Virus record (IMG/VR): IMGVR_UViG_3300012920_000154
Location: 1 to 31,291 of that record
Direction: 5' to 3' (one strand)
Source of the DNA: a virus
DNA length: 31,291 nucleotides
The notes under the pieces are model-generated. The model was not told where the DNA came from. It worked only from the letters and a program-made list of their open reading frames with translations, and did not search any database. The translations under genes and the position numbers were made by a program. Of this stretch, positions 6,401-24,383 are shown piece after piece (the first letter of the stretch is position 1; every line of letters begins with the position of its first letter).

Positions 6401-7281
6401 ACAAGATCCTACAAACTACCGAAGGCCAGATTAATGACTACAACAATAAAATCAATGAGGCACTTGATCAGTATGCAGAGAGTCAAAATAAGGAAAGCCA
6501 AAAAATAAATGAGGATCAAATTGCAAAGGCAAAAGAGAACTCTAAACAAATTAATGACATTGTAAAAAGTTCGGCAGACTTTTTCATCCAGCAATCCGAT
6601 AAAAAGATAAGTCAGATTGAAAAAGAAATGAACAAAGCAGAAGAGCAATTTGATTACTTTAAGGAACTCGCTATCAATGGGAACATTGATGCAAAGGAAA
6701 GTCTCGCAGAACAACAGAAGATCATTAATGAAGCCAATAAAAGGAAACTTGAAGAGGAAAAGAAACAACAAAGAATCAGAATGGCCGAGTCGGTTTTTAA
6801 TACTTATTCAAGCAAAGTAGAATCTGGATCTAAGAATCCTATAGCCGAGACAATCCGAGACACATCTTTGTTGTTGCAATTTATTAACTCAATACCTACA
6901 TTCTTTGAGGGTACTGAAGACACTGGATCACATGGACAAGGAGTTGATGGTCGAGGTGGTTTCCATGCAGTTCTACATCCTAATGAGAGAGTAGTTCCAA
7001 AGTCATTGAATCAACAGATCGGTGATCTTACAAATGAAGAACTGACTAACATAGCAGTGGACTACAAAAATGGTCGAGTGGTTGAAGGTGCTACACAGAT
7101 GAAGTCTTCAATGGATTTGGCTATTTTAGTAAATGAATTGTCAGACATTAAAAGAACTATTCAGAACAAGCCAGAGACAAACATTGAACTCGGTGAGATT
7201 ACTCAGTCAATGATGGAAGTAGTAAAGTCAACCAAGAAAGGAAATACAATTGTTTACAACAGATTTAAAATAAAGAAATAA
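3415..7281 (+). CDS. Tail tape measure protein
   Basis: At 1,288 residues this is the longest protein in the window. It sets tail length and occupies the tail lumen. Residues 1-200 are Lys/Glu/Gln-rich coiled coil. Residues about 235-480 contain the TP901-type tape measure core: FDQAQADLSAITGK, ELGATTQFSATQITEMQ, ELGKLGFTTDQI, SFADFESAMSNVGPVANSFG, and DAGFEASKGSVAVRNIFLKL. Hydrophobic segments follow (VVMTAIEVFVKYQIIIKSS; KNIFGIVLIVAMELF), then a second long coiled coil to about residue 1130. A Gly-rich motif (GQGVDGRGGFHAVLHPNERVVP) near residue 1180 is often seen at the C-terminal end of these proteins in Bacteroidetes phages. The ATG at 3415 (preceded by AAATAACA) is chosen over ATG 3382, which lies deeper in the preceding gene. 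The stop abuts the next ATG (TAAATG). Confidence 0.93.
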   Translation: MARKISSRDIFTQEDIFKGIRDSAKQTIKMMNDLQKEVTGTANALKKSIGGAKFDSAKSIKKVVDVTQKANKLKKESIQIDKLKAQAVQQEAKANQELEKIEQQKIKTAQQQQRLDSQNRKEKERLLKVQEKQKKTIQDESNAYKKLVKETREAKNESKRLGAEMLNLERSGKRNTKEYRSLAQAYNKMSAEAKRGDKALKKLDKSVGDNFRNVGNYKGAITGLISTLGTLGAGIGIGQIFRNVTGIMINFDQAQADLSAITGKTKQELAGLTEQAKELGATTQFSATQITEMQIELGKLGFTTDQIIKSTEAVSNFASATGSDLASASKVAGASLRMFNLDATEMDRVVSTLGVATTKSALSFADFESAMSNVGPVANSFGFTIEDSVTLLAKLKDAGFEASKGSVAVRNIFLKLADASSPLAKSIGGPVKSMDDLVQAFKKLKAEGTDLGKALELTDARSVSAFSVFLEQADTLTSFKDSITDVNAELEMMAKKRLDSVQGKITLLSSAWEGFILGVDDSTGASEKLKDMIGGLAENLSQIMNVVMTAIEVFVKYQIIIKSSALANRLYTASLMMMSTDMKGLTGALSVLRTGFQRLGQALSKNIFGIVLIVAMELFQEFSKLNGIMETTERNAERLAEAESKLANETQKEVDEVNLLFDALKNTNKESTDRKQLIDEINSKYGTTLKNLENEKDFVDQINGAYQDLMTTIQAKSEQEAVRMRFEMASQDLAKVQFEMEKAQSKLSQFREKSELEKFGATLFDLFGATSENELIKIFNAYKDQVKESQKVFDNAKKSYDEMKLASIVDGDDDPNFPSPIGGDAGETKKNITANLKEYKLGADKLFMLNQKLAKQQEKIRQGTTDDLISGEVMNALKTARETGEARVEIVEEMMTKESGKRIDFLKKQRDEELTFEKEQLKKIQEERRADLEKEVTDKINKINASKSEQKQAEIDALNELYEVRKTEIKALEEKENEEFELSQDVKNGTLKESTDKILQTTEGQINDYNNKINEALDQYAESQNKESQKINEDQIAKAKENSKQINDIVKSSADFFIQQSDKKISQIEKEMNKAEEQFDYFKELAINGNIDAKESLAEQQKIINEANKRKLEEEKKQQRIRMAESVFNTYSSKVESGSKNPIAETIRDTSLLLQFINSIPTFFEGTEDTGSHGQGVDGRGGFHAVLHPNERVVPKSLNQQIGDLTNEELTNIAVDYKNGRVVEGATQMKSSMDLAILVNELSDIKRTIQNKPETNIELGEITQSMMEVVKSTKKGNTIVYNRFKIKK

Positions 7282-14681: not shown

Positions 14682-14902
14682 AACGCATTTAGAAGCGATT
14701 TAAGGCACTTTAGTGTCTCTCTGGTATCCTACTATCAAAAAACAAAGTTATGCGATTCGCCTATAAACAAAGGGATACAGAAGGGGTAATCAAAAAACGT
14801 GATTAATATCTAATCAAAACACAATTATAAAAAAAATTTGCCTCTGTATTCCAGTGCTGGTGGGACTTTCAGAAATCAGAAAAAATTATTTTCACTTTAT
14901 GC
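14682..14902. other. Non-coding region with competing helices between late and early blocks
   Basis: No convincing gene lies here on either strand. The stretch contains segment A CTGGTATCC (14721-14729), segment B GGATACAGAAGG (14773-14784) and segment C CCTCTGTATTCC (14841-14852). B can pair with A (eight pairs, one bulge) or with C (about eleven pairs, two bulges), so the two helices exclude each other. A separate hairpin TAATCA/TGATTA (14787-14805) lies between B and C. This could be a terminator or attenuator at the end of the late transcript, or the site of the switch to the early block. No T-run terminator was seen. Confidence 0.4.
14693..14717 (+). repeat. 25-base hairpin repeat, copy 1
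   Basis: This segment matches 23056-23080 at 22 of 25 positions (both contain AAGCGATTTAAG, then R-CACTTT, then TGTC). The right half can fold as GGCAC/GTGTC around TTTA. It is located just after the last late gene, in non-coding sequence. A binding site or processing signal is possible. Confidence 0.5.
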
Positions 14903-14934
14903 TTGTTTATATTAAATTAAATATATTATATTTG
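14903..14934 (+). promoter_or_regulatory. Bacteroidetes-type promoter for the early block
   Basis: The -7 box TATATTTG (14927-14934) matches TAnnTTTG exactly, and TTG at 14903-14905 lies 21 bases upstream as the -33 element. Between them is TATATTAAATTAA (14908-14920), a 13-base sequence also found upstream of the same -7 box at two other sites. Transcription would start near 14940 and give a short A/C-rich leader (TCAACAACAACG) before the ATG at 14957. Confidence 0.8.
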
Positions 14935-14956
14935 TATCAACAACAACGAGAAAGAG

Positions 14957-15121
14957 ATGACAATTTTAAAAGCAAGTAAAGAATTAAACGAGAGAGGAAT
15001 CATTAACTCAATCAAAGGAGAAAAAGGTAACTGGTACATTGATGTAACATATTGTAGAGATACAGAGATCAGATACGCAAAAATGACATATCCTAATATA
15101 ACTTTTAAAAAAGAAAAATAA
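14957..15121 (+). CDS. Small early protein of unknown function
   Basis: A 54-residue product (start MTILKASKELNERG, end TFKKEK) is the first gene after the early promoter. It is basic and has a plausible small beta pattern (GNWYIDVTYCRDTEIRY). The ATG follows the leader AGAAAGAG. The codon pattern is clean, with no internal stop, and the gene ends before another AT-rich leader. As the first gene of an early transcript it is a candidate host-takeover protein, but no family is recognised. Confidence 0.6.
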   Translation: MTILKASKELNERGIINSIKGEKGNWYIDVTYCRDTEIRYAKMTYPNITFKKEK

Positions 15122-15154
15122 TAAAGTAATAAAAAACAACGAAAAAAAAACACA

Positions 15155-15355
15155 ATGAAAAACCTAACAAACAGACAAAACCAACTTGTAGAAGCAATCA
15201 AAAAAGCAGAAGATCAATTCCTTTATGTAGAGATAGGTAAGATATTTAAACAAAACACTATTGACTCTTTGCTTAAATATAACATTATTGAGATTCATGA
15301 TTTAGAACTCGGTGGTGCTTGGGGAGATGATACTTGTTTTATAACTTTAAAATAA
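15155..15355 (+). CDS. Small early protein of unknown function
   Basis: The 66-residue product begins MKNLTNRQNQLVEAIKKA and has a helical N-terminal half followed by a short strand region (HDLELGGAWGDDTCFITLK). The first half reads like a short helix-turn-helix (LVEAIKKAEDQFLYVEIGKI), but no motif is definite. It is preceded by AAAAAAACACA, the A-rich leader typical of Bacteroidetes starts, and 33 bases separate it from the upstream gene. Confidence 0.6.
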   Translation: MKNLTNRQNQLVEAIKKAEDQFLYVEIGKIFKQNTIDSLLKYNIIEIHDLELGGAWGDDTCFITLK

Positions 15356-15361
15356 AACACA

Positions 15362-16683: not shown

Positions 16684-16914
16684 ATGCCTAAAGCAAACAA
16701 AAAACTGAACATCACTATCTTCTTTTGTGATCGATTTGAACTTTACAATATATTTAGACGAATCATCAAGATCATCCACAACGGAACGCAACACAAATTT
16801 GAGGAGATAAATGGATCTTTTTATGAATTTGACTTTGAATACTCACCCAGATATGACTACGAGGAAGAGATCATCAATGGGAATGTTTGTTACACTTACA
16901 AGTCGAAGGTATAA
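16684..16914 (+). CDS. Small early protein upstream of the replication organiser
   Basis: The 76-residue product (MPKANKKLNITIFFCDRFEL and an acidic, Tyr-rich end EFDFEYSPRYDYEEEIING) is of unknown function. Its stop overlaps the start of the replication organiser by one base (TAATG), so the two are translationally coupled. The leader AAAACGCATTAAA before the ATG resembles one at 24403-24415. Confidence 0.6.
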   Translation: MPKANKKLNITIFFCDRFELYNIFRRIIKIIHNGTQHKFEEINGSFYEFDFEYSPRYDYEEEIINGNVCYTYKSKV

Positions 16915-17582
16915 TGAATGGATGGATCAAGATTGAGAGAGACATAACATCACACTGGATATTCCAAGACTCGTGGAAGTTTAGAAACTGGATCGATCTA
17001 TTGACTATGGTCAACTATCAAAAAAAGAAGATCGAGCTCAATGGTCAGTTATTTGTCTGTAAACGTGGCGAAACTTTGAGATCAATTCAGACACTTGCTA
17101 ACAGATGGAGATGTTCAAAATCGAAGGCCAGGAGGTTTCTGAAGTTATTAGAAAGTGATCAAATGATTGTTCTAACTAATGAAACAAAAACGACACGAAT
17201 AACTATCTGTAATTTTGATAGTTACCAAGAAGACCGAAACGATAATGAATCGCAGACGAAACGCAGACGAAACGCAGACGAAACGCAGACGAACCCAAAC
17301 AAGAAAGATAAGAAAGATAAGAAGGATAAGAAAGAAGGATTTAAGTCAGATCTTTCTCCTTTTTTAGAAAAGTATGGATCTGATATGTTGAATGAGTTTT
17401 TTATGTATTGGACTGAGAAGACTCCTAATGGAAAGATGAGGTTTGAAACCATGAAAGCATTCAGTCTTTCGAGAAGACTTTCTACATGGGCAAAGAATCA
17501 ACCAAAGTTCTCCAACGATGATGACAAGTTCATGAGCCACATTAAGGAACAAATCAAGAGAGGAGGTGACAATGTCAATTGA
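16914..17582 (+). CDS. Replication organiser, winged-helix DnaD/lambda O-like
   Basis: This 222-residue protein probably binds the phage origin and recruits the helicase. The N-terminus (MNGWIKIERDITSHWIFQD) is the classic start of phage replisome organisers. Residues about 52-105 hold a winged-helix region (GETLRSIQTLANRWRCSKSK, ARRFLKLLESDQMI). Residues 113-127 are encoded by 11-bp tandem DNA repeats, and residues 130-141 (KKDKKDKKDKKE) by 9-bp repeats, forming a charged linker. The C-terminal domain (YGSDMLNEFFMYWTEKTPNGK; MRFETMKAFSLSRRLSTWA) is the helicase-contact-like module. ATG 16914 is preferred over a TTG at 16887 because it starts at the conserved MNGWIKI and overlaps the upstream stop. 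The helicase-like ATPase gene follows with an 11-base overlap. Confidence 0.85.
   Translation: MNGWIKIERDITSHWIFQDSWKFRNWIDLLTMVNYQKKKIELNGQLFVCKRGETLRSIQTLANRWRCSKSKARRFLKLLESDQMIVLTNETKTTRITICNFDSYQEDRNDNESQTKRRRNADETQTNPNKKDKKDKKDKKEGFKSDLSPFLEKYGSDMLNEFFMYWTEKTPNGKMRFETMKAFSLSRRLSTWAKNQPKFSNDDDKFMSHIKEQIKRGGDNVN
17251..17336 (+). repeat. Iteron cluster plus purine-rich tract: candidate replication origin
   Basis: Four head-to-tail copies of the 11-bp unit CGCAGACGAAA lie at 17251-17261, 17262-17272, 17273-17283 and 17284-17293 (the last lacks its final A). Seven bases later come four 9-bp units, AAGAAAGAT twice, AAGAAGGAT and AAGAAAGAA (17301-17336), which form a purine-rich, easily melted tract. 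Because 11 is not a multiple of three, the iterons are read in successive frames. Iterons plus an AT-rich tract inside the initiator gene is the arrangement of the phage lambda origin in gene O. Confidence 0.7.
17561..17566 (+). promoter_or_regulatory. Strong Shine-Dalgarno site deciding the ATPase start
   Basis: AGGAGG stands five bases before ATG 17572 and supports that start over the GTG at 17566, which overlaps the site itself. Such perfect sites are unusual in Bacteroidetes, where most starts have only an A-rich leader. Confidence 0.65.
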
Positions 17583-18465
17583 GAGTCATGGATCATCAAT
17601 GAAGTACCTTCTGGACTATCACTCTGGAAAGATTAAGCCAGGTCTTGGTATCGGATGTCAACTTGATGATTATCTGAGGTTAAAAAAATCATCGATGACG
17701 ATTGCGTTGGGACATGATAATGTCGGAAAAACGGCCTGGCTGATATGGATGCTAACTTGTCACATAATCATAAACAAAAAGAAGGTGATCATGTGGTCTG
17801 GAGAGAACTCCAAAGGTCAGATCATGAGAGACATGATTCAGTGGTTTGCTGGTGTACCATTTAAGCAATTGACAACCACTCAGATCACAAAAATTCACAA
17901 TCATCTTGAGAACTATGTTGAGTTTGTAGACAACAAAAAACTATACAAACCAGACGAGCTCAATGACATCTATGGATCATCAGATGCAGACATTTGTCTA
18001 CTTGATCCATTCACTGGTCTTGATCGAGACATGACATATGAAGGCAACTATCGATTTTTGAATGACATGAGGCAGTTTGTAAACACTACTCAGAAATCTG
18101 TATACATCACAACGCATCCGACATCTGCAAGTGGTCGATCTGGAGCAGTGTATACTGATGGTGATTTCAAGGGACATTTGAAGATGCCTATGAAAAGTGA
18201 ATGTGAAGGAGGCAAGGCATTTGTCAATAGATCATGTGATGTGCTGGTCATCCACAGAATGCCTGGCCATCCGACAATGAAATACTACACAATGGTATCT
18301 ATTGAGAAGATTAAAGACAAGGAGACTGGTGGTCAGATTAGTGAATATCAATCTCCTTTGCTATTTTCGTGGAACTCTGGTCTGGGATTCACGATTGCTG
18401 CAGTAGATCCACTCCAGAAACATAGACCGAATTTAAACAAGTTAAACAAACCTATATTATTATGA
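17572..18465 (+). CDS. RecA/DnaB-like ATPase (replicative helicase-type)
   Basis: The 297-residue protein consists of one RecA-type ATPase core. Walker A is GHDNVGKT (47-54). A Walker B-like strand is DICLLDPF (around 140). The KIKDKETGGQ segment near residue 255 resembles the loop region of hexameric SF4 helicases. It lacks the N-terminal primase-binding domain of full DnaB (which would make about 450 residues), so it is either a minimal helicase or a helicase-loading ATPase. It follows the replication organiser, so the pair likely acts at the origin inside that gene. The start overlaps the upstream gene by 11 bases, and its stop overlaps the next start. Confidence 0.8.
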   Translation: MSIESHGSSMKYLLDYHSGKIKPGLGIGCQLDDYLRLKKSSMTIALGHDNVGKTAWLIWMLTCHIIINKKKVIMWSGENSKGQIMRDMIQWFAGVPFKQLTTTQITKIHNHLENYVEFVDNKKLYKPDELNDIYGSSDADICLLDPFTGLDRDMTYEGNYRFLNDMRQFVNTTQKSVYITTHPTSASGRSGAVYTDGDFKGHLKMPMKSECEGGKAFVNRSCDVLVIHRMPGHPTMKYYTMVSIEKIKDKETGGQISEYQSPLLFSWNSGLGFTIAAVDPLQKHRPNLNKLNKPILL

Positions 18466-18764
18466 GTCAAGAACTATATCTATTTACGATCAAGACAATG
18501 ATTGATCACAACTATCTGAAGGTGAAAATAAGCCGAGAGGAGATCGAACAAAATCATCCAGATCGAACTGATCTGATCAAGAGCATGAAGGAAACTGAGG
18601 AAGATCTACTTCACATCAAGTCTGGCTGGTCAATAGTCACCACTGAGATGAAAGACTTTGCAAGGAGATCAATGGTGCTTGAGACAGAAGCCAATGGTCT
18701 AAGATTAGAAAACAGAGATCTCAAAGAAAAATATCAACGTATCCTGGCCGAAGTGGAACTATGA
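18462..18764 (+). CDS. Coiled-coil protein of the replication block
   Basis: The 100-residue product is helical, and its second half is a clear coiled coil (RRSMVLETEANGLRLENRDL). It overlaps both neighbours by four bases (ATGA), the tightest coupling in the replication block, so it is probably made in step with the ATPase and the NinG-like protein. No enzymatic motif is visible. A helicase accessory or structural partner is possible. Confidence 0.6.
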   Translation: MSQELYLFTIKTMIDHNYLKVKISREEIEQNHPDRTDLIKSMKETEEDLLHIKSGWSIVTTEMKDFARRSMVLETEANGLRLENRDLKEKYQRILAEVEL

Positions 18765-19324
18765 AGAGGTGCAAAAATTGTGGATCGAAGTTCAAACCAA
18801 GATACAAGACAACAGAGAAGTTCTGCTGGAATACCGAATGCAAAACACAAGAGGCACTTCTTAATCTTGAGAAGATTAAAAACAAACAAAAGGCAAAGCA
18901 AAGCAAGGAACTCAGACAACGAAAGAAGGATCTGGAAACAATGCAACAGATGGCTAAAAGAGTCCAGAAGGTAGTCAATCAGTTCGTAAGACTCCGAGAT
19001 GCTGGTAAGAAATGTATATCATGTCACAAGATCCTTAAAGGCAAATTTGATGCTGGTCATTATTATAATGCAAATAACCACTGGAATGTCAGATTCAATG
19101 CTCATCTAAACATTTTTGGCCAGTGTGTCACTTGCAATAGACATCGACATGGAAACCTCATCGAGATGCGTAAAGGACTACTTCAGAGGATCGGAGAGAT
19201 TGGCCTGGATCATCTTGATACTATTGCACATGAAACTCGTAAATTCAACAAGATTGAACTCCAAGAGATCATGAATATCTACAAGGAAAGAATACAAGAA
19301 ATAAAGGATCAGAAAAAAAATTAA
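18761..19324 (+). CDS. ninG: NinG/Rap-like recombination nuclease
   Basis: The 187-residue protein matches the lambda NinG (Rap) pattern, a nuclease that acts on branched DNA and Holliday junctions during phage recombination. A zinc-ribbon begins the protein (Cys4, Cys7, Cys22, Cys27). A long basic helix follows (residues 35-75). The core then shows KKCISCHKI, FDAGHYYNANNHWNVRFN, FGQCVTCNRHRHGNL, with paired Cys and His residues typical of the family. The end is helical. It closes the replication block and is followed by an AT-rich promoter region. The gene symbol is given by family resemblance. Confidence 0.85.
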   Translation: MKRCKNCGSKFKPRYKTTEKFCWNTECKTQEALLNLEKIKNKQKAKQSKELRQRKKDLETMQQMAKRVQKVVNQFVRLRDAGKKCISCHKILKGKFDAGHYYNANNHWNVRFNAHLNIFGQCVTCNRHRHGNLIEMRKGLLQRIGEIGLDHLDTIAHETRKFNKIELQEIMNIYKERIQEIKDQKKN

Positions 19325-19339
19325 TATTATATATAATGA

Positions 19340-19364
19340 TATATTAAATTAATCTTTATATTTG
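19340..19364 (+). promoter_or_regulatory. Second early promoter with shared 13-base upstream element
   Basis: TATATTAAATTAA (19340-19352) is followed after four bases by the -7 box TATATTTG (19357-19364). The same 13 bases and box occur at 14908-14934 and, on the - strand, at 26946-26922. No TTG -33 element is evident. It would drive the recombination block from 19385 to the terminator at 22039. Confidence 0.75.
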
Positions 19365-19384
19365 CATAAATTAAAACCTATAAA

Positions 19385-19825
19385 ATGAATAAAATCAGAA
19401 ACCCAAGAGAAGGAGTAGTCCAGAAGTATCTAAACTTTTTAATGGATCTTAGACATGAAATTAATGAAGAACCAACATATCCAGTGCATGATGTTGTTAA
19501 AAAGCACAAGGTAGGTCATTCAATTATAGCGAGACTAACTGAATTAAACATAATTTCTGGAACTGGCCCAAGAGGTAGAAAATGGACTGGTAGATTTCCA
19601 GATTATCAAATGATTCAAGACCTCAGATTGCAAGTAAGAAAAGTAAATGAATCAAAACTAAAACCATTTAAGAGATGGAAACCATCTGACCTTGTACATC
19701 CGACATCTGGTAAACAGATGGGAGTCGGAAACGTACATTATCCAAAATCAAGATCAAGAACATGGTCATTGATTAAGTCATTAACAATCTTTAAATACAA
19801 GTTTAGAATCTATAAATTGAAATAA
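19385..19825 (+). CDS. Basic protein, possible DNA-binding regulator
   Basis: The 146-residue product is strongly basic. The N-terminal half could hold a winged-helix or HTH domain (YPVHDVVKKHKVGHSIIARL, TELNIISGTGPRGRKWTG). The C-terminal part is Lys/Arg/Ser-rich (HYPKSRSRTWSLIKSLTIFK). It is the first gene behind its own promoter, a common place for a regulator. No exact family is recognised, so DNA binding is inference from composition and pattern. Confidence 0.55.
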   Translation: MNKIRNPREGVVQKYLNFLMDLRHEINEEPTYPVHDVVKKHKVGHSIIARLTELNIISGTGPRGRKWTGRFPDYQMIQDLRLQVRKVNESKLKPFKRWKPSDLVHPTSGKQMGVGNVHYPKSRSRTWSLIKSLTIFKYKFRIYKLK

Positions 19826-19827
19826 AA

Positions 19828-20085
19828 ATGCAACACAAAAGAATTTATATTCATTCAGAATTACAAAGTAAAAAATTTGGATTACTTAAATCGTCTCAAT
19901 GGTCATATCTCACAAGTGATTCAGAAATGCACAAAAAAAGTATCCGAGAGGCTTGTGTTGAAGAAATTTACACATTCGTAAATGAATGGTCACTGGATCA
20001 ATGTTGGGGTGTAAAAAAACACGAATCTTTTACACGAAAATTTAGTGATGAATTGGAAAAAAATGCAAAAATTATAATTAAATAA
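19828..20085 (+). CDS. Small protein of unknown function
   Basis: The 85-residue product (MQHKRIYIHSELQSKKFGLL, then KKSIREACVEEIYTFVNEWS) is mixed alpha/beta and close to both neighbours (2 and 4 bases). No domain is recognised. It belongs to the transcript that encodes the annealing protein and exonuclease, so an accessory role in recombination is possible. Confidence 0.6.
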   Translation: MQHKRIYIHSELQSKKFGLLKSSQWSYLTSDSEMHKKSIREACVEEIYTFVNEWSLDQCWGVKKHESFTRKFSDELEKNAKIIIK

Positions 20086-20089
20086 TAAA

Positions 20090-20695
20090 ATGGGCGAAAC
20101 AACCACAAAAAGAAAGACTCCAGTAAGAGCAAAGATACGCAAAGAGATCGGAATCTATGAGGCACTCATGAACTTCCAGAGTGATATGCCGACACTTCCA
20201 CAGAACACGAAAGGATATGGATACACATACACAGATCTGTTGACAATCATCAACACTGCACAACCGATCCTGGCTAAACATGGTCTTGTGATCACACAAC
20301 CAATCTCTGGAACAAAGATCACAACCATACTGCATCACATACCAAGCAAAGAAGAGATTCAGTCATATGTAGATATTCCACAAGATGTCAATCTCAAAGG
20401 TCAAAATACCTTTCAAGTTTATGGATCGGCCTTGACATATTTTAGAAGGTACTCATATATCTCAATACTATCTATTGTCAGTGATGCCGATCTGGATGCA
20501 TCTGGTACAGAAGTAAAACCATCAAAAGTATCAAACGCACTTCCAACATTGTCAGATACAGACTTTAATAAATTACTTGCAGCATTAGGTAATGAAGACA
20601 AGAATGGAAACCTCATTGATGAGTATTATGCAGTGAGTAGATATTCATTGAGTCCAATTCAATCCAAAAAAATAAAGGAGGTATTCAATGGATAG
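20090..20695 (+). CDS. erf: ERF-family single-strand annealing recombinase
   Basis: The 201-residue protein belongs to the ERF superfamily. The N-terminal half has the family pattern (IYEALMNFQSDMPTLPQNTK, YGYTYTDLLTIINTAQPILAK, HGLVITQPI), and residues about 108-135 hold the signature YGSALTYFRRYSYISILSIVSDADLD in split form. ERF proteins anneal complementary single strands and promote recombination and genome circularisation. The next gene overlaps it by eight bases and encodes an exonuclease, giving the usual annealase-nuclease pair. The N-terminus is Lys/Thr-rich. Confidence 0.9.
   Translation: MGETTTKRKTPVRAKIRKEIGIYEALMNFQSDMPTLPQNTKGYGYTYTDLLTIINTAQPILAKHGLVITQPISGTKITTILHHIPSKEEIQSYVDIPQDVNLKGQNTFQVYGSALTYFRRYSYISILSIVSDADLDASGTEVKPSKVSNALPTLSDTDFNKLLAALGNEDKNGNLIDEYYAVSRYSLSPIQSKKIKEVFNG
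20676..20681 (+). promoter_or_regulatory. Shine-Dalgarno site for the exonuclease gene
   Basis: AGGAGG lies six bases before ATG 20688, inside the end of the annealing-protein gene. It fixes the exonuclease start in an overlap where no A-rich leader can be present. Confidence 0.65.
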
Positions 20696-21425
20696 ACCGT
20701 CAGACAATTGGTATGTCAGAGCATCCTCAGTGGGTGCTTTGATGTCCAAAGGCAGAGGAAAGGGCCATGAGTGGGGTGCAACTGCAATGGGAGTAATTCA
20801 AGAAGCAGTCCTATTCAATAAGTATGGTGTAAAAACTCAGATACAATCAAAGTATCTTGACAAAGGCATCATTAATGAGCCAGTGGCCTTAGAGATGTTT
20901 TATCGAGCAATGGACATGGATGTGACATCCACAGATCAGAATACAAAGACAAGAATATTTAATGACTATATAACTGGAGAGCCAGACATATACATTGATG
21001 GAGTTCTCGGTGATGTCAAATGCTCATTTAATGCATCGACATTCCCATTCCTACATGATGGTGATCTTAAGTCATTGAACAAGTCCTATCATTATCAAAT
21101 GCTTTGTTATATGTGGCTTTTTGATTGCTCAGAGTCTTACCTGGCTTATTGTCTCACAGACACTCCAGACCACATGATTGAGGATGATGTACAAAGGAGA
21201 ACATTCAAAGCAATGACATATCCAGAGAACGCACACAAGGACATGAGTCAGATCGAGGATGAGATCAGAGATCAAGTCAATAAAGAAATGAGATTCAATC
21301 ATATCCCAGAGAAGTCAAGGATAAGAATGTACAAAGTAGACAGAGATCTGGATGAGATAGAATTGATTAAGGCCAGAGTCATCGAGGCCAGAAAAAAGTA
21401 CGATGAAATTTATGAACTTCTATAA
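20688..21425 (+). CDS. YqaJ-like PD-(D/E)XK exonuclease
   Basis: The 245-residue protein is probably the 5'-3' exonuclease partner of the annealing protein. Motifs follow family order: WYVRASSVGALMSKGRGK at the start, KGIINEPVALEMFYRA (catalytic Glu region), GEPDIYIDG, then GDVKCSFN (Asp and the E/QxK-like catalytic segment), and YHYQMLCYMWL. Here the usual E/QxK is DVK, with Asp as the acidic residue. It would resect double-strand ends to give single strands for ERF. The gene is flanked by the annealing protein and the SSB-like protein. Confidence 0.85.
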   Translation: MDRPSDNWYVRASSVGALMSKGRGKGHEWGATAMGVIQEAVLFNKYGVKTQIQSKYLDKGIINEPVALEMFYRAMDMDVTSTDQNTKTRIFNDYITGEPDIYIDGVLGDVKCSFNASTFPFLHDGDLKSLNKSYHYQMLCYMWLFDCSESYLAYCLTDTPDHMIEDDVQRRTFKAMTYPENAHKDMSQIEDEIRDQVNKEMRFNHIPEKSRIRMYKVDRDLDEIELIKARVIEARKKYDEIYELL

Positions 21426-21434
21426 ACTAAAAAA

Positions 21435-21800
21435 ATGAACGTAGAGGGAAAAATACACAAGATAGGTGAGACACAACAGATCTCACAGAAATTTCAAAAG
21501 AGAGAGATCGTCATAAAGACAGAAGGAGACTATCCTCAATTCATAGGATGTCAATTGACACAAGACAATTGTTCAATGGCCGATCAGTTTGTAGTGGGCC
21601 AGGAGGTCAATGCATCTATCAATCTGAGAGGTCGAGAATGGAAAAGTCCACAAGGTGAGGTCAAATACTTCAACACTTTGGAGATCTGGAAGATGACATC
21701 AACTCAAGAGATGGGATCTGCTCAAGGAGGTATCGACAGAAACTTCCAAGAGGATGCGATAAATGATTTACAGAATCAACAAGACGATTTACCATTCTAA
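21435..21800 (+). CDS. DUF3127 single-stranded DNA-binding-like protein
   Basis: The 121-residue protein matches the DUF3127 family of Bacteroidetes and their phages: GKIHKIGETQQISQKFQKRE, QLTQDNCSM, GREWKSPQGEVKYFNTLE. The body looks like an OB-fold, and the end is acidic, finishing QQDDLPF, similar to the DDIPF tail through which SSB proteins recruit partners. It probably coats single strands produced by the exonuclease. The stop overlaps the next start by one base (TAATG). Confidence 0.85.
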   Translation: MNVEGKIHKIGETQQISQKFQKREIVIKTEGDYPQFIGCQLTQDNCSMADQFVVGQEVNASINLRGREWKSPQGEVKYFNTLEIWKMTSTQEMGSAQGGIDRNFQEDAINDLQNQQDDLPF

Positions 21801-23684: not shown

Positions 23685-24383
23685 ATGAAAGTGTTAAACC
23701 TATATTGTGGAATCGGAGGAAACCGAAAACTTTGGAACTCACCAGGCCTTGATGTTACTGCAATAGAATACGATGAAACTATTGCACAAATTTACCAAGA
23801 TTACAATCCAAAGGATAAAGTCATTGTAACAGATGCACATCAATACTTATTAGATCATTACGAAGAATTTGATTTCATATGGTCATCACCTCCATGTCCT
23901 ACACATTCAATCACAAATCACTTTTTGAATGCTCAAGGAATAAAAAGATATCCAGATATGGCCTTGTATGAAGAGATTATCCTATTACAAACTTTTTTTA
24001 AAGGTAAATACATTGTTGAAAATGTTAAAAGTTACTACAATCCATTAATTAAGCCGCAAATAAGTGGTAGACATTACTTTTGGGCGAACTTTAAAATACC
24101 AAATTTGGAGTACAAAAAGCAAATTGGTAGAATGAACGGTAAGAAAAAAACAATTGGCGAAACTCAATACAATGTTAGATTCAACAACCACAAAAAATTG
24201 GGTTTTGACCTATCTAAATATAAGTATAAAAACAAAGATAAATTACTAAACAATTGCGTGGCTCCAGAGATTGGAGATGCAATATTTAAGTGTGCATTAG
24301 GAATATATAAAGCAAACAATGTAAAACAAACAAATTTATTGGATGCTATAGCCAGAGAAGAAAAACCAAAACAAAAGAGATGA
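23685..24383 (+). CDS. DNA (cytosine-5) methyltransferase
   Basis: The 232-residue enzyme transfers a methyl group from S-adenosylmethionine to C5 of cytosine. Motif I LYCGIGG (6-12) binds the cofactor. Motif IV is SSPPCPTHS with catalytic Cys71, motif VI is IVENV (112-114 ENV), and a motif X-like VAPEIGDAI lies near residue 200. The protein is short (typical enzymes exceed 300 residues), with a small target-recognition region between motifs VI and X. No restriction enzyme gene is adjacent, so it is probably an orphan that protects phage DNA against host restriction. Only one GATC was seen in the gene, unlike the surrounding genes, suggesting recent acquisition. Confidence 0.88.
   Translation: MKVLNLYCGIGGNRKLWNSPGLDVTAIEYDETIAQIYQDYNPKDKVIVTDAHQYLLDHYEEFDFIWSSPPCPTHSITNHFLNAQGIKRYPDMALYEEIILLQTFFKGKYIVENVKSYYNPLIKPQISGRHYFWANFKIPNLEYKKQIGRMNGKKKTIGETQYNVRFNNHKKLGFDLSKYKYKNKDKLLNNCVAPEIGDAIFKCALGIYKANNVKQTNLLDAIAREEKPKQKR

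Follow-up and report, generated by a model that had tools for sequence, protein, structure and literature searches.

An SPP1 oriL-like candidate replication origin within the replisome organiser gene of an uncultured phage

RESULTS

A replisome organiser gene with a candidate origin in its linker

The viral DNA analysed here (IMG/VR record IMGVR_UViG_3300012920_000154, positions 1 to 31,291; hereafter, the window, 31,291 nucleotides in length) very probably carries a replication origin inside the gene for its own replisome organiser. A head-to-tail array of five 11-bp iterons (17240 to 17294) and the purine- and AT-rich tract that follows it (17297 to 17345), both located in the linker-encoding part of this gene, are best read as a phage origin of the SPP1 oriL kind. 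We put the probability of this reading, which is based on sequence comparison, at roughly 0.88.

The organiser gene (16914 to 17582, forward strand) encodes a 222–amino acid protein of the G38P/DnaD-like helicase loader family. The protein matched phrog_2514 (DnaD-like helicase loader) with an E value of 8e-32 and, in a tblastn comparison, SPP1 gene 38 with 35% identity over residues 3 to 126 (E = 7e-16); a match to the O-like phrog_391 was weak (E = 6e-4). Among annotated phages, DnaD-like replication genes of staphylococcal, Listeria, Bacillus, and Vibrio phages were matched as well. A sequence search of solved structures gave no close relative of the organiser, and a Foldseek search with its AlphaFold model returned general winged-helix matches (best E = 0.009, none below 0.001). 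In the model, a winged-helix DNA-binding domain occupies residues ~7 to 105 (16932 to 17228, forward strand; pLDDT of about 80 to 94 for most of the domain) and contains a predicted recognition helix at residues 69 to 81 (17118 to 17156, forward strand). Residues 106 to 131 are predicted to be disordered (pLDDT mostly below 50), and the C-terminal part (17346 to 17579, forward strand), which is exchangeable among relatives, is predicted to be helical up to residue 195. The array encodes residues 109 to 127, which fall within the disordered segment. Since this linker appears to be unstructured, the DNA could carry an origin there at little cost to the protein.

Directly downstream of the organiser lies a gene for a DnaB-like helicase ATPase (17566 to 18465, forward strand; DnaB_C, E = 1e-5; primase/helicase phrog, E = 2e-15). 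The same order was observed in 29 of the 32 loci where such an ATPase was found and could be placed. A preliminary description of this DNA, made from its letters, had put the repeats in the middle of a winged-helix organiser gene just before a helicase-like ATPase, and the matches of both genes bear this out. No gp39-like helicase loader was recognised next to the organiser. Further downstream, the region from 18761 to 21800 encodes a recombination module consisting of NinG (2e-35), Erf (8e-20), a YqaJ-like exonuclease, and a DUF3127/SSB-like protein. Elsewhere in the window, ~680 bp of AT-rich DNA without a long forward open reading frame (14682 to 15361) separates a metallophosphoesterase-like gene from the early region and is a possible control region. 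An open reading frame at 23685 to 24383 begins like a cytosine methyltransferase and contains an SPPC motif (MKVLNLYCGIGGNRKLW...SSPPCPTHS).

Five head-to-tail iterons and an AT-rich tract

Positions 17251 to 17294 consist of three exact copies of CGCAGACGAAA (unit 2, 17251 to 17261; unit 3, 17262 to 17272; unit 4, 17273 to 17283) and a fourth copy ending in C (CGCAGACGAAC; unit 5, 17284 to 17294), all on the forward strand. The longest exact run at lag 11 is 32 bases, compared to a maximum of 12 when the whole window was dinucleotide-shuffled 200 times, and elsewhere in the 31.3-kb window, lags of 6 to 30 yield no run that reaches 18 bases. The four tandem units of the preliminary description are thus real and far beyond chance, but their count has to be raised to five: a degenerate first unit, CGATAATGAAT (17240 to 17250, forward strand), had been missed. 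It shares the register of units 2 to 5, and a unit 1 is found at the same position in relatives. No inverted repeats were found between 16801 and 17800, and the units are head-to-tail 11-mers without dyad symmetry. The suggestion that all proteins bound to the array would face one side of the DNA holds approximately, since 11 bp per unit against about 10.5 bp per helical turn gives a drift of roughly 17° per unit.

The tract downstream of the array (17297 to 17345, forward strand) contains the purine-rich 9-bp repeat noted in the preliminary description: Tandem Repeats Finder (TRF) detected about four copies of AAGAAAGAT, encoding KKDKKDKKDKKE, at 17301 to 17336. At 17297 to 17341, the purine fraction reaches the 99.99th percentile of the window, and low duplex stability of the tract is at about the 95th percentile. 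A 9-bp period is also present in the equivalent tract of relatives, and in 52 loci mean GC content is lowest directly after the array (0.27 to 0.29 versus 0.47 within the array). Low GC content fits the role of a DNA unwinding element, and from its composition we regard the tract as a candidate for one.

Repeats of this kind may also serve regulation. The array could be an operator, by means of which the organiser represses its own operon or blocks transcription, with no replication starting there; winged-helix proteins, to which the Foldseek matches belong, are often repressors, and repeats within a gene could give autoregulation. We consider such a role in place of an origin improbable: the array is located ~330 bp inside the gene, away from a promoter, the GC minimum always follows the array, and the equivalent segment of SPP1 is a proven origin. 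Autoregulation could, however, accompany origin function.

A second array, as would be expected for an SPP1 oriR-like site, was not found within the 31.3-kb window; the record is classed as linear and may be incomplete. GC skew, a check named in the preliminary description, was monotonic, without a turning point at the array, which is weak evidence against an origin because all genes are on one strand.

The 11-bp period is widespread among related organisers

The exact 22-mer formed by a tandem pair of units is present in 11 IMG/VR contigs, and a looser pair (two consecutive CGCANNYGAAA units) was found in at least 119 stretches of IMG/VR. Among the annotated phage records listed, there was no cultured Bacteroidota phage with a CGCANNYGAAA array. 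Of 124 contigs collected, 121 have the tandem pair in the linker part of a gene from this organiser family (109 identified by script and 12 by reading); the exceptions are L038, L100, and L109. In L038, two such iterons in tandem (7000 to 7060) are located in the gene of a different protein, which starts with MAKIYYLPLNCKDWL and is unmatched by the organiser profile; this protein possibly represents another initiator family using the same sites. The L100 record (11.2 kb), where no organiser was found, has the same iterons outside any long open reading frame (1195 to 1300), after a remnant resembling the end of an organiser domain (T-V-R-F-N-I-C-..-S-Y-K) and before a very AT-rich stretch. This looks like an organiser gene that has decayed while its origin persisted. 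In L006, a relative 95% identical to the window, the unit corresponding to window positions 17251 to 17261 reads CGCAAGTGAAA instead of CGCAGACGAAA; the three changes are adjacent, and the rest of the array is identical, suggesting that whole units are exchanged while their number stays at five.

Since these 124 contigs were chosen by the pattern itself, organisers were collected again by protein alone. For 65 protein-found organisers with less than 60% pairwise identity, self-match at lag 11 was calculated in the 90 nt following the conserved domain, with codon shuffling as a control. The lag-11 self-match was 0.47 compared to 0.31 after shuffling (z = 27), with further peaks at 22, 33, and 44, and the DNA of the conserved domain of the same 65 organisers had no lag-11 peak. 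Individually, the 11-bp period was significant (p < 0.05) in 50 of the 65 organisers and not in the remaining 15. The letters of the unit differ widely between lineages (for example, CGCAGATGAAA, CGATTGCCAAA, CAACATCAAAA, and CGGGCAAACAA). Some divergent organisers prefer lag 12, which rivals lag 11 among distant members, so the 11-bp rule is firmest near the window’s own family. The stronger period is 22 bp, with two alternating units, in L135, L134, L137, and L138; the bound unit in such lineages may be a pair of half-sites.

Both the position and the size of the array are largely constant. In most loci, unit 1 begins 11 nt after conserved YQ codons, and 24 of 29 protein-found loci have five units. 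Six pattern-found loci for which the automatic count was seven also have five by reading. According to the preliminary description, a change by one or two copies would cut off the C-terminal domain. This is true for the window, where each of the other two frames runs into a stop (14 and 70 nt past the array) ahead of the C-terminal domain; in the few relatives with three or four units, however, the downstream frame is still open. Loss of frame can therefore be compensated and does not present an absolute evolutionary barrier. L149 has eight units, and a gain of three keeps the frame.

Selection acts on the DNA of the array

A repeat inside a coding region may reflect its protein product, in this case a flexible charged linker grown by slippage that has no role as DNA. 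The predicted disorder of the segment agrees with such an explanation, but the length of the unit does not: because 11 is not a multiple of three, a protein repeat, which would give a period of 33, fails to explain the array. To hold the protein fixed, synonymous codons were redrawn from each gene’s own usage in 29 loci. The lag-11 match dropped from 0.629 to 0.424 (z = 19); for the window alone, p was 0.0005. As most of the periodicity is lost when synonymous codons are redrawn, selection acts on the DNA. Synonymous sites also show much stronger conservation in the array than in the domain: in pairs among 43 organisers, a shared amino acid had a shared codon in 77% of array cases, compared with 47% of those in the domain. 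We therefore regard a purely protein-level origin of the 11-bp repeat as very unlikely.

The array also bears the mark of the reading frame. In the window, the first base of unit 3 is also the first base of a codon, and a T at the seventh position of this unit would create a TGA stop codon. In the CGCANNYGAAA group, T at this position was found in none of 21 third units, where it would produce TGA, versus 52 of 84 units starting at codon position 2 or 3. Avoidance of the stop is thus confined to the one unit whose register would place it in frame, which indicates that the array obeys both codes.

The 9-bp tract behaved differently in the same analysis. Its independent selection as a DNA repeat was not supported in the window (p = 0.27 under synonymous redrawing), where a KKD protein repeat fully accounts for the period. 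Across the family, the 9-bp period shows a small excess over the protein-fixed expectation (z = 4).

Comparison with SPP1 and other known origins

The direct repeats of SPP1 oriL, located within gene 38, are binding sites of gp38, with an AT-rich region serving as the unwinding element (PMC6316719). A 350-bp fragment, 35801 to 36151, is in use as SPP1 oriL (PMC5615212). At the corresponding place in SPP1 gene 38, we found 4.6 copies of an 11-bp unit and, after them, 3.6 copies of a 9-bp AT-rich one. Converted via the published gene 38 position (35,580 to 36,350), the 11-bp array maps to ~35,939 to 35,989 and the 9-bp repeats to ~35,997 to 36,028, and both therefore fall inside the oriL fragment. 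The two phages thus share a homologous N-terminal domain, 11-bp direct repeats at the same site of the gene, 9-bp AT-rich repeats after them, and a replicative helicase gene close downstream. They differ in the letters of the iterons (SPP1 units are close to CGACACGAAAA, those of the window are CGCAGACGAAA) and in the C-terminal domain of the organiser; in addition, no gp39-type loader between organiser and helicase and no second origin were found in the window.

Comparable layouts occur in other organiser genes. PVL orf 46, also a G38P-/DnaD-like organiser gene, has 11-bp units together with 9-bp AT-rich repeats, but its unit is CAACATCAAAA and is present in about eight (7.9) copies. ORF20 of 80alpha is a G38P-like organiser 26% identical to G38P; supplying the gene in trans fails to complement its deletion, and the origin is therefore believed to lie inside the gene (PMC5499656). 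Unlike the phage studied here, 80alpha recruits a host-encoded helicase through a DnaC-like loader. Iteron plasmids (P1, F, RK2, and others) likewise have head-to-tail direct repeats in helix phase beside an AT-rich region (PMC5043065), but their iterons are usually about 20 to 22 bp long and lie outside the rep gene, and their initiators are different.

The preliminary description compared the layout to that of lambda and proposed that it had arisen independently, with unrelated iterons. In lambda, too, iterons and an AT-rich tract are located inside the initiator gene, between the DNA-binding and helicase-recruiting parts. The lambda iterons, however, are longer inverted repeats that bind O dimers (PMC5043065), in contrast to the 11-bp head-to-tail units of the window, and the initiators are unrelated or only remotely related, the window organiser not being a member of the lambda O family. 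An origin of lambda O type that converged on this arrangement with no relation to SPP1 is hardly credible, the general likeness of layout and the weak phrog_391 match being outweighed by much stronger DnaD-like/G38P homology, by an identically placed 11-bp array in the SPP1 family, and by the lack of an inverted repeat in the window. The claim of independent origin is thus abandoned: given homology to G38P and the same in-gene position and order of 11-bp and then 9-bp repeats as in oriL, shared ancestry with SPP1-type origins is a better account than convergence with lambda.

Iteron letters vary with the recognition region, and C-terminal domains are exchanged

Organisers with more similar recognition regions also tend to have more similar arrays, once the remainder of the domain is corrected for (partial r of 0.31, permutation p = 0.0005), a correlation confounded by common descent. 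The best covariation windows fall in the winged helix. R at one position of the helix goes with G at unit position 8 in 26 of 28 cases, and N at the same position with C in 4 of 6; the corresponding helix segments read KVRRF and KARNF. This covariation is suggestive of recognition specificity and of nothing firmer, because organiser and array are inherited together and descent alone could produce it.

Organisers L231 and L073, as well as L215 and L250, have N-terminal domains up to 94% identical and similar arrays, followed by unrelated C-terminal domains. C-terminal domains are thus exchanged while the winged-helix domain and the array stay together, which places the origin at the swapping joint.

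DISCUSSION

The claim made at the outset of this analysis, an origin of iterons and an AT- and purine-rich tract inside the organiser gene, is strengthened by the selection detected on the DNA of the repeats. By analogy with SPP1, the winged-helix domain of the organiser would bind all five head-to-tail 11-bp iterons; the bound copies, lying side by side at intervals of roughly one helical turn, would make up a nucleoprotein complex. Strain from this complex would open the adjoining AT-rich tract, and the complex would recruit and load the product of the adjacent downstream gene, the DnaB-like helicase. Organiser binding, tract opening, and helicase loading in this order are the likely course of events in this phage.

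Beyond a single contig, we lean toward a general arrangement, in which G38P/DnaD-like organisers of phages from several bacterial phyla have the origin at a fixed site of the gene as an 11-bp head-to-tail array, usually of five units, whose letters change together with the recognition region and which forms the joint for C-terminal swaps. No description of a general 11-bp rule was found in the literature searched, which did not extend to the SPP1 origin papers of 1994 and 1997 or to a key review; the family-wide rule may be new.

For an uncultured phage, and likewise for well over 100 related contigs, the analysis supplies an origin that is precisely located and can be tested. What was the case of SPP1 becomes an apparent rule of the family, an 11-bp rhythm kept by DNA-level selection in a coding linker while its letters change, and a clean example of one stretch of DNA that would serve both as an array of binding sites and as protein code. 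The specificity of origin recognition, i.e., which residues read which bases, becomes testable by swaps of domains and arrays. If the general origin grammar is true, sequence could suffice to locate the origins of many uncultured phages.
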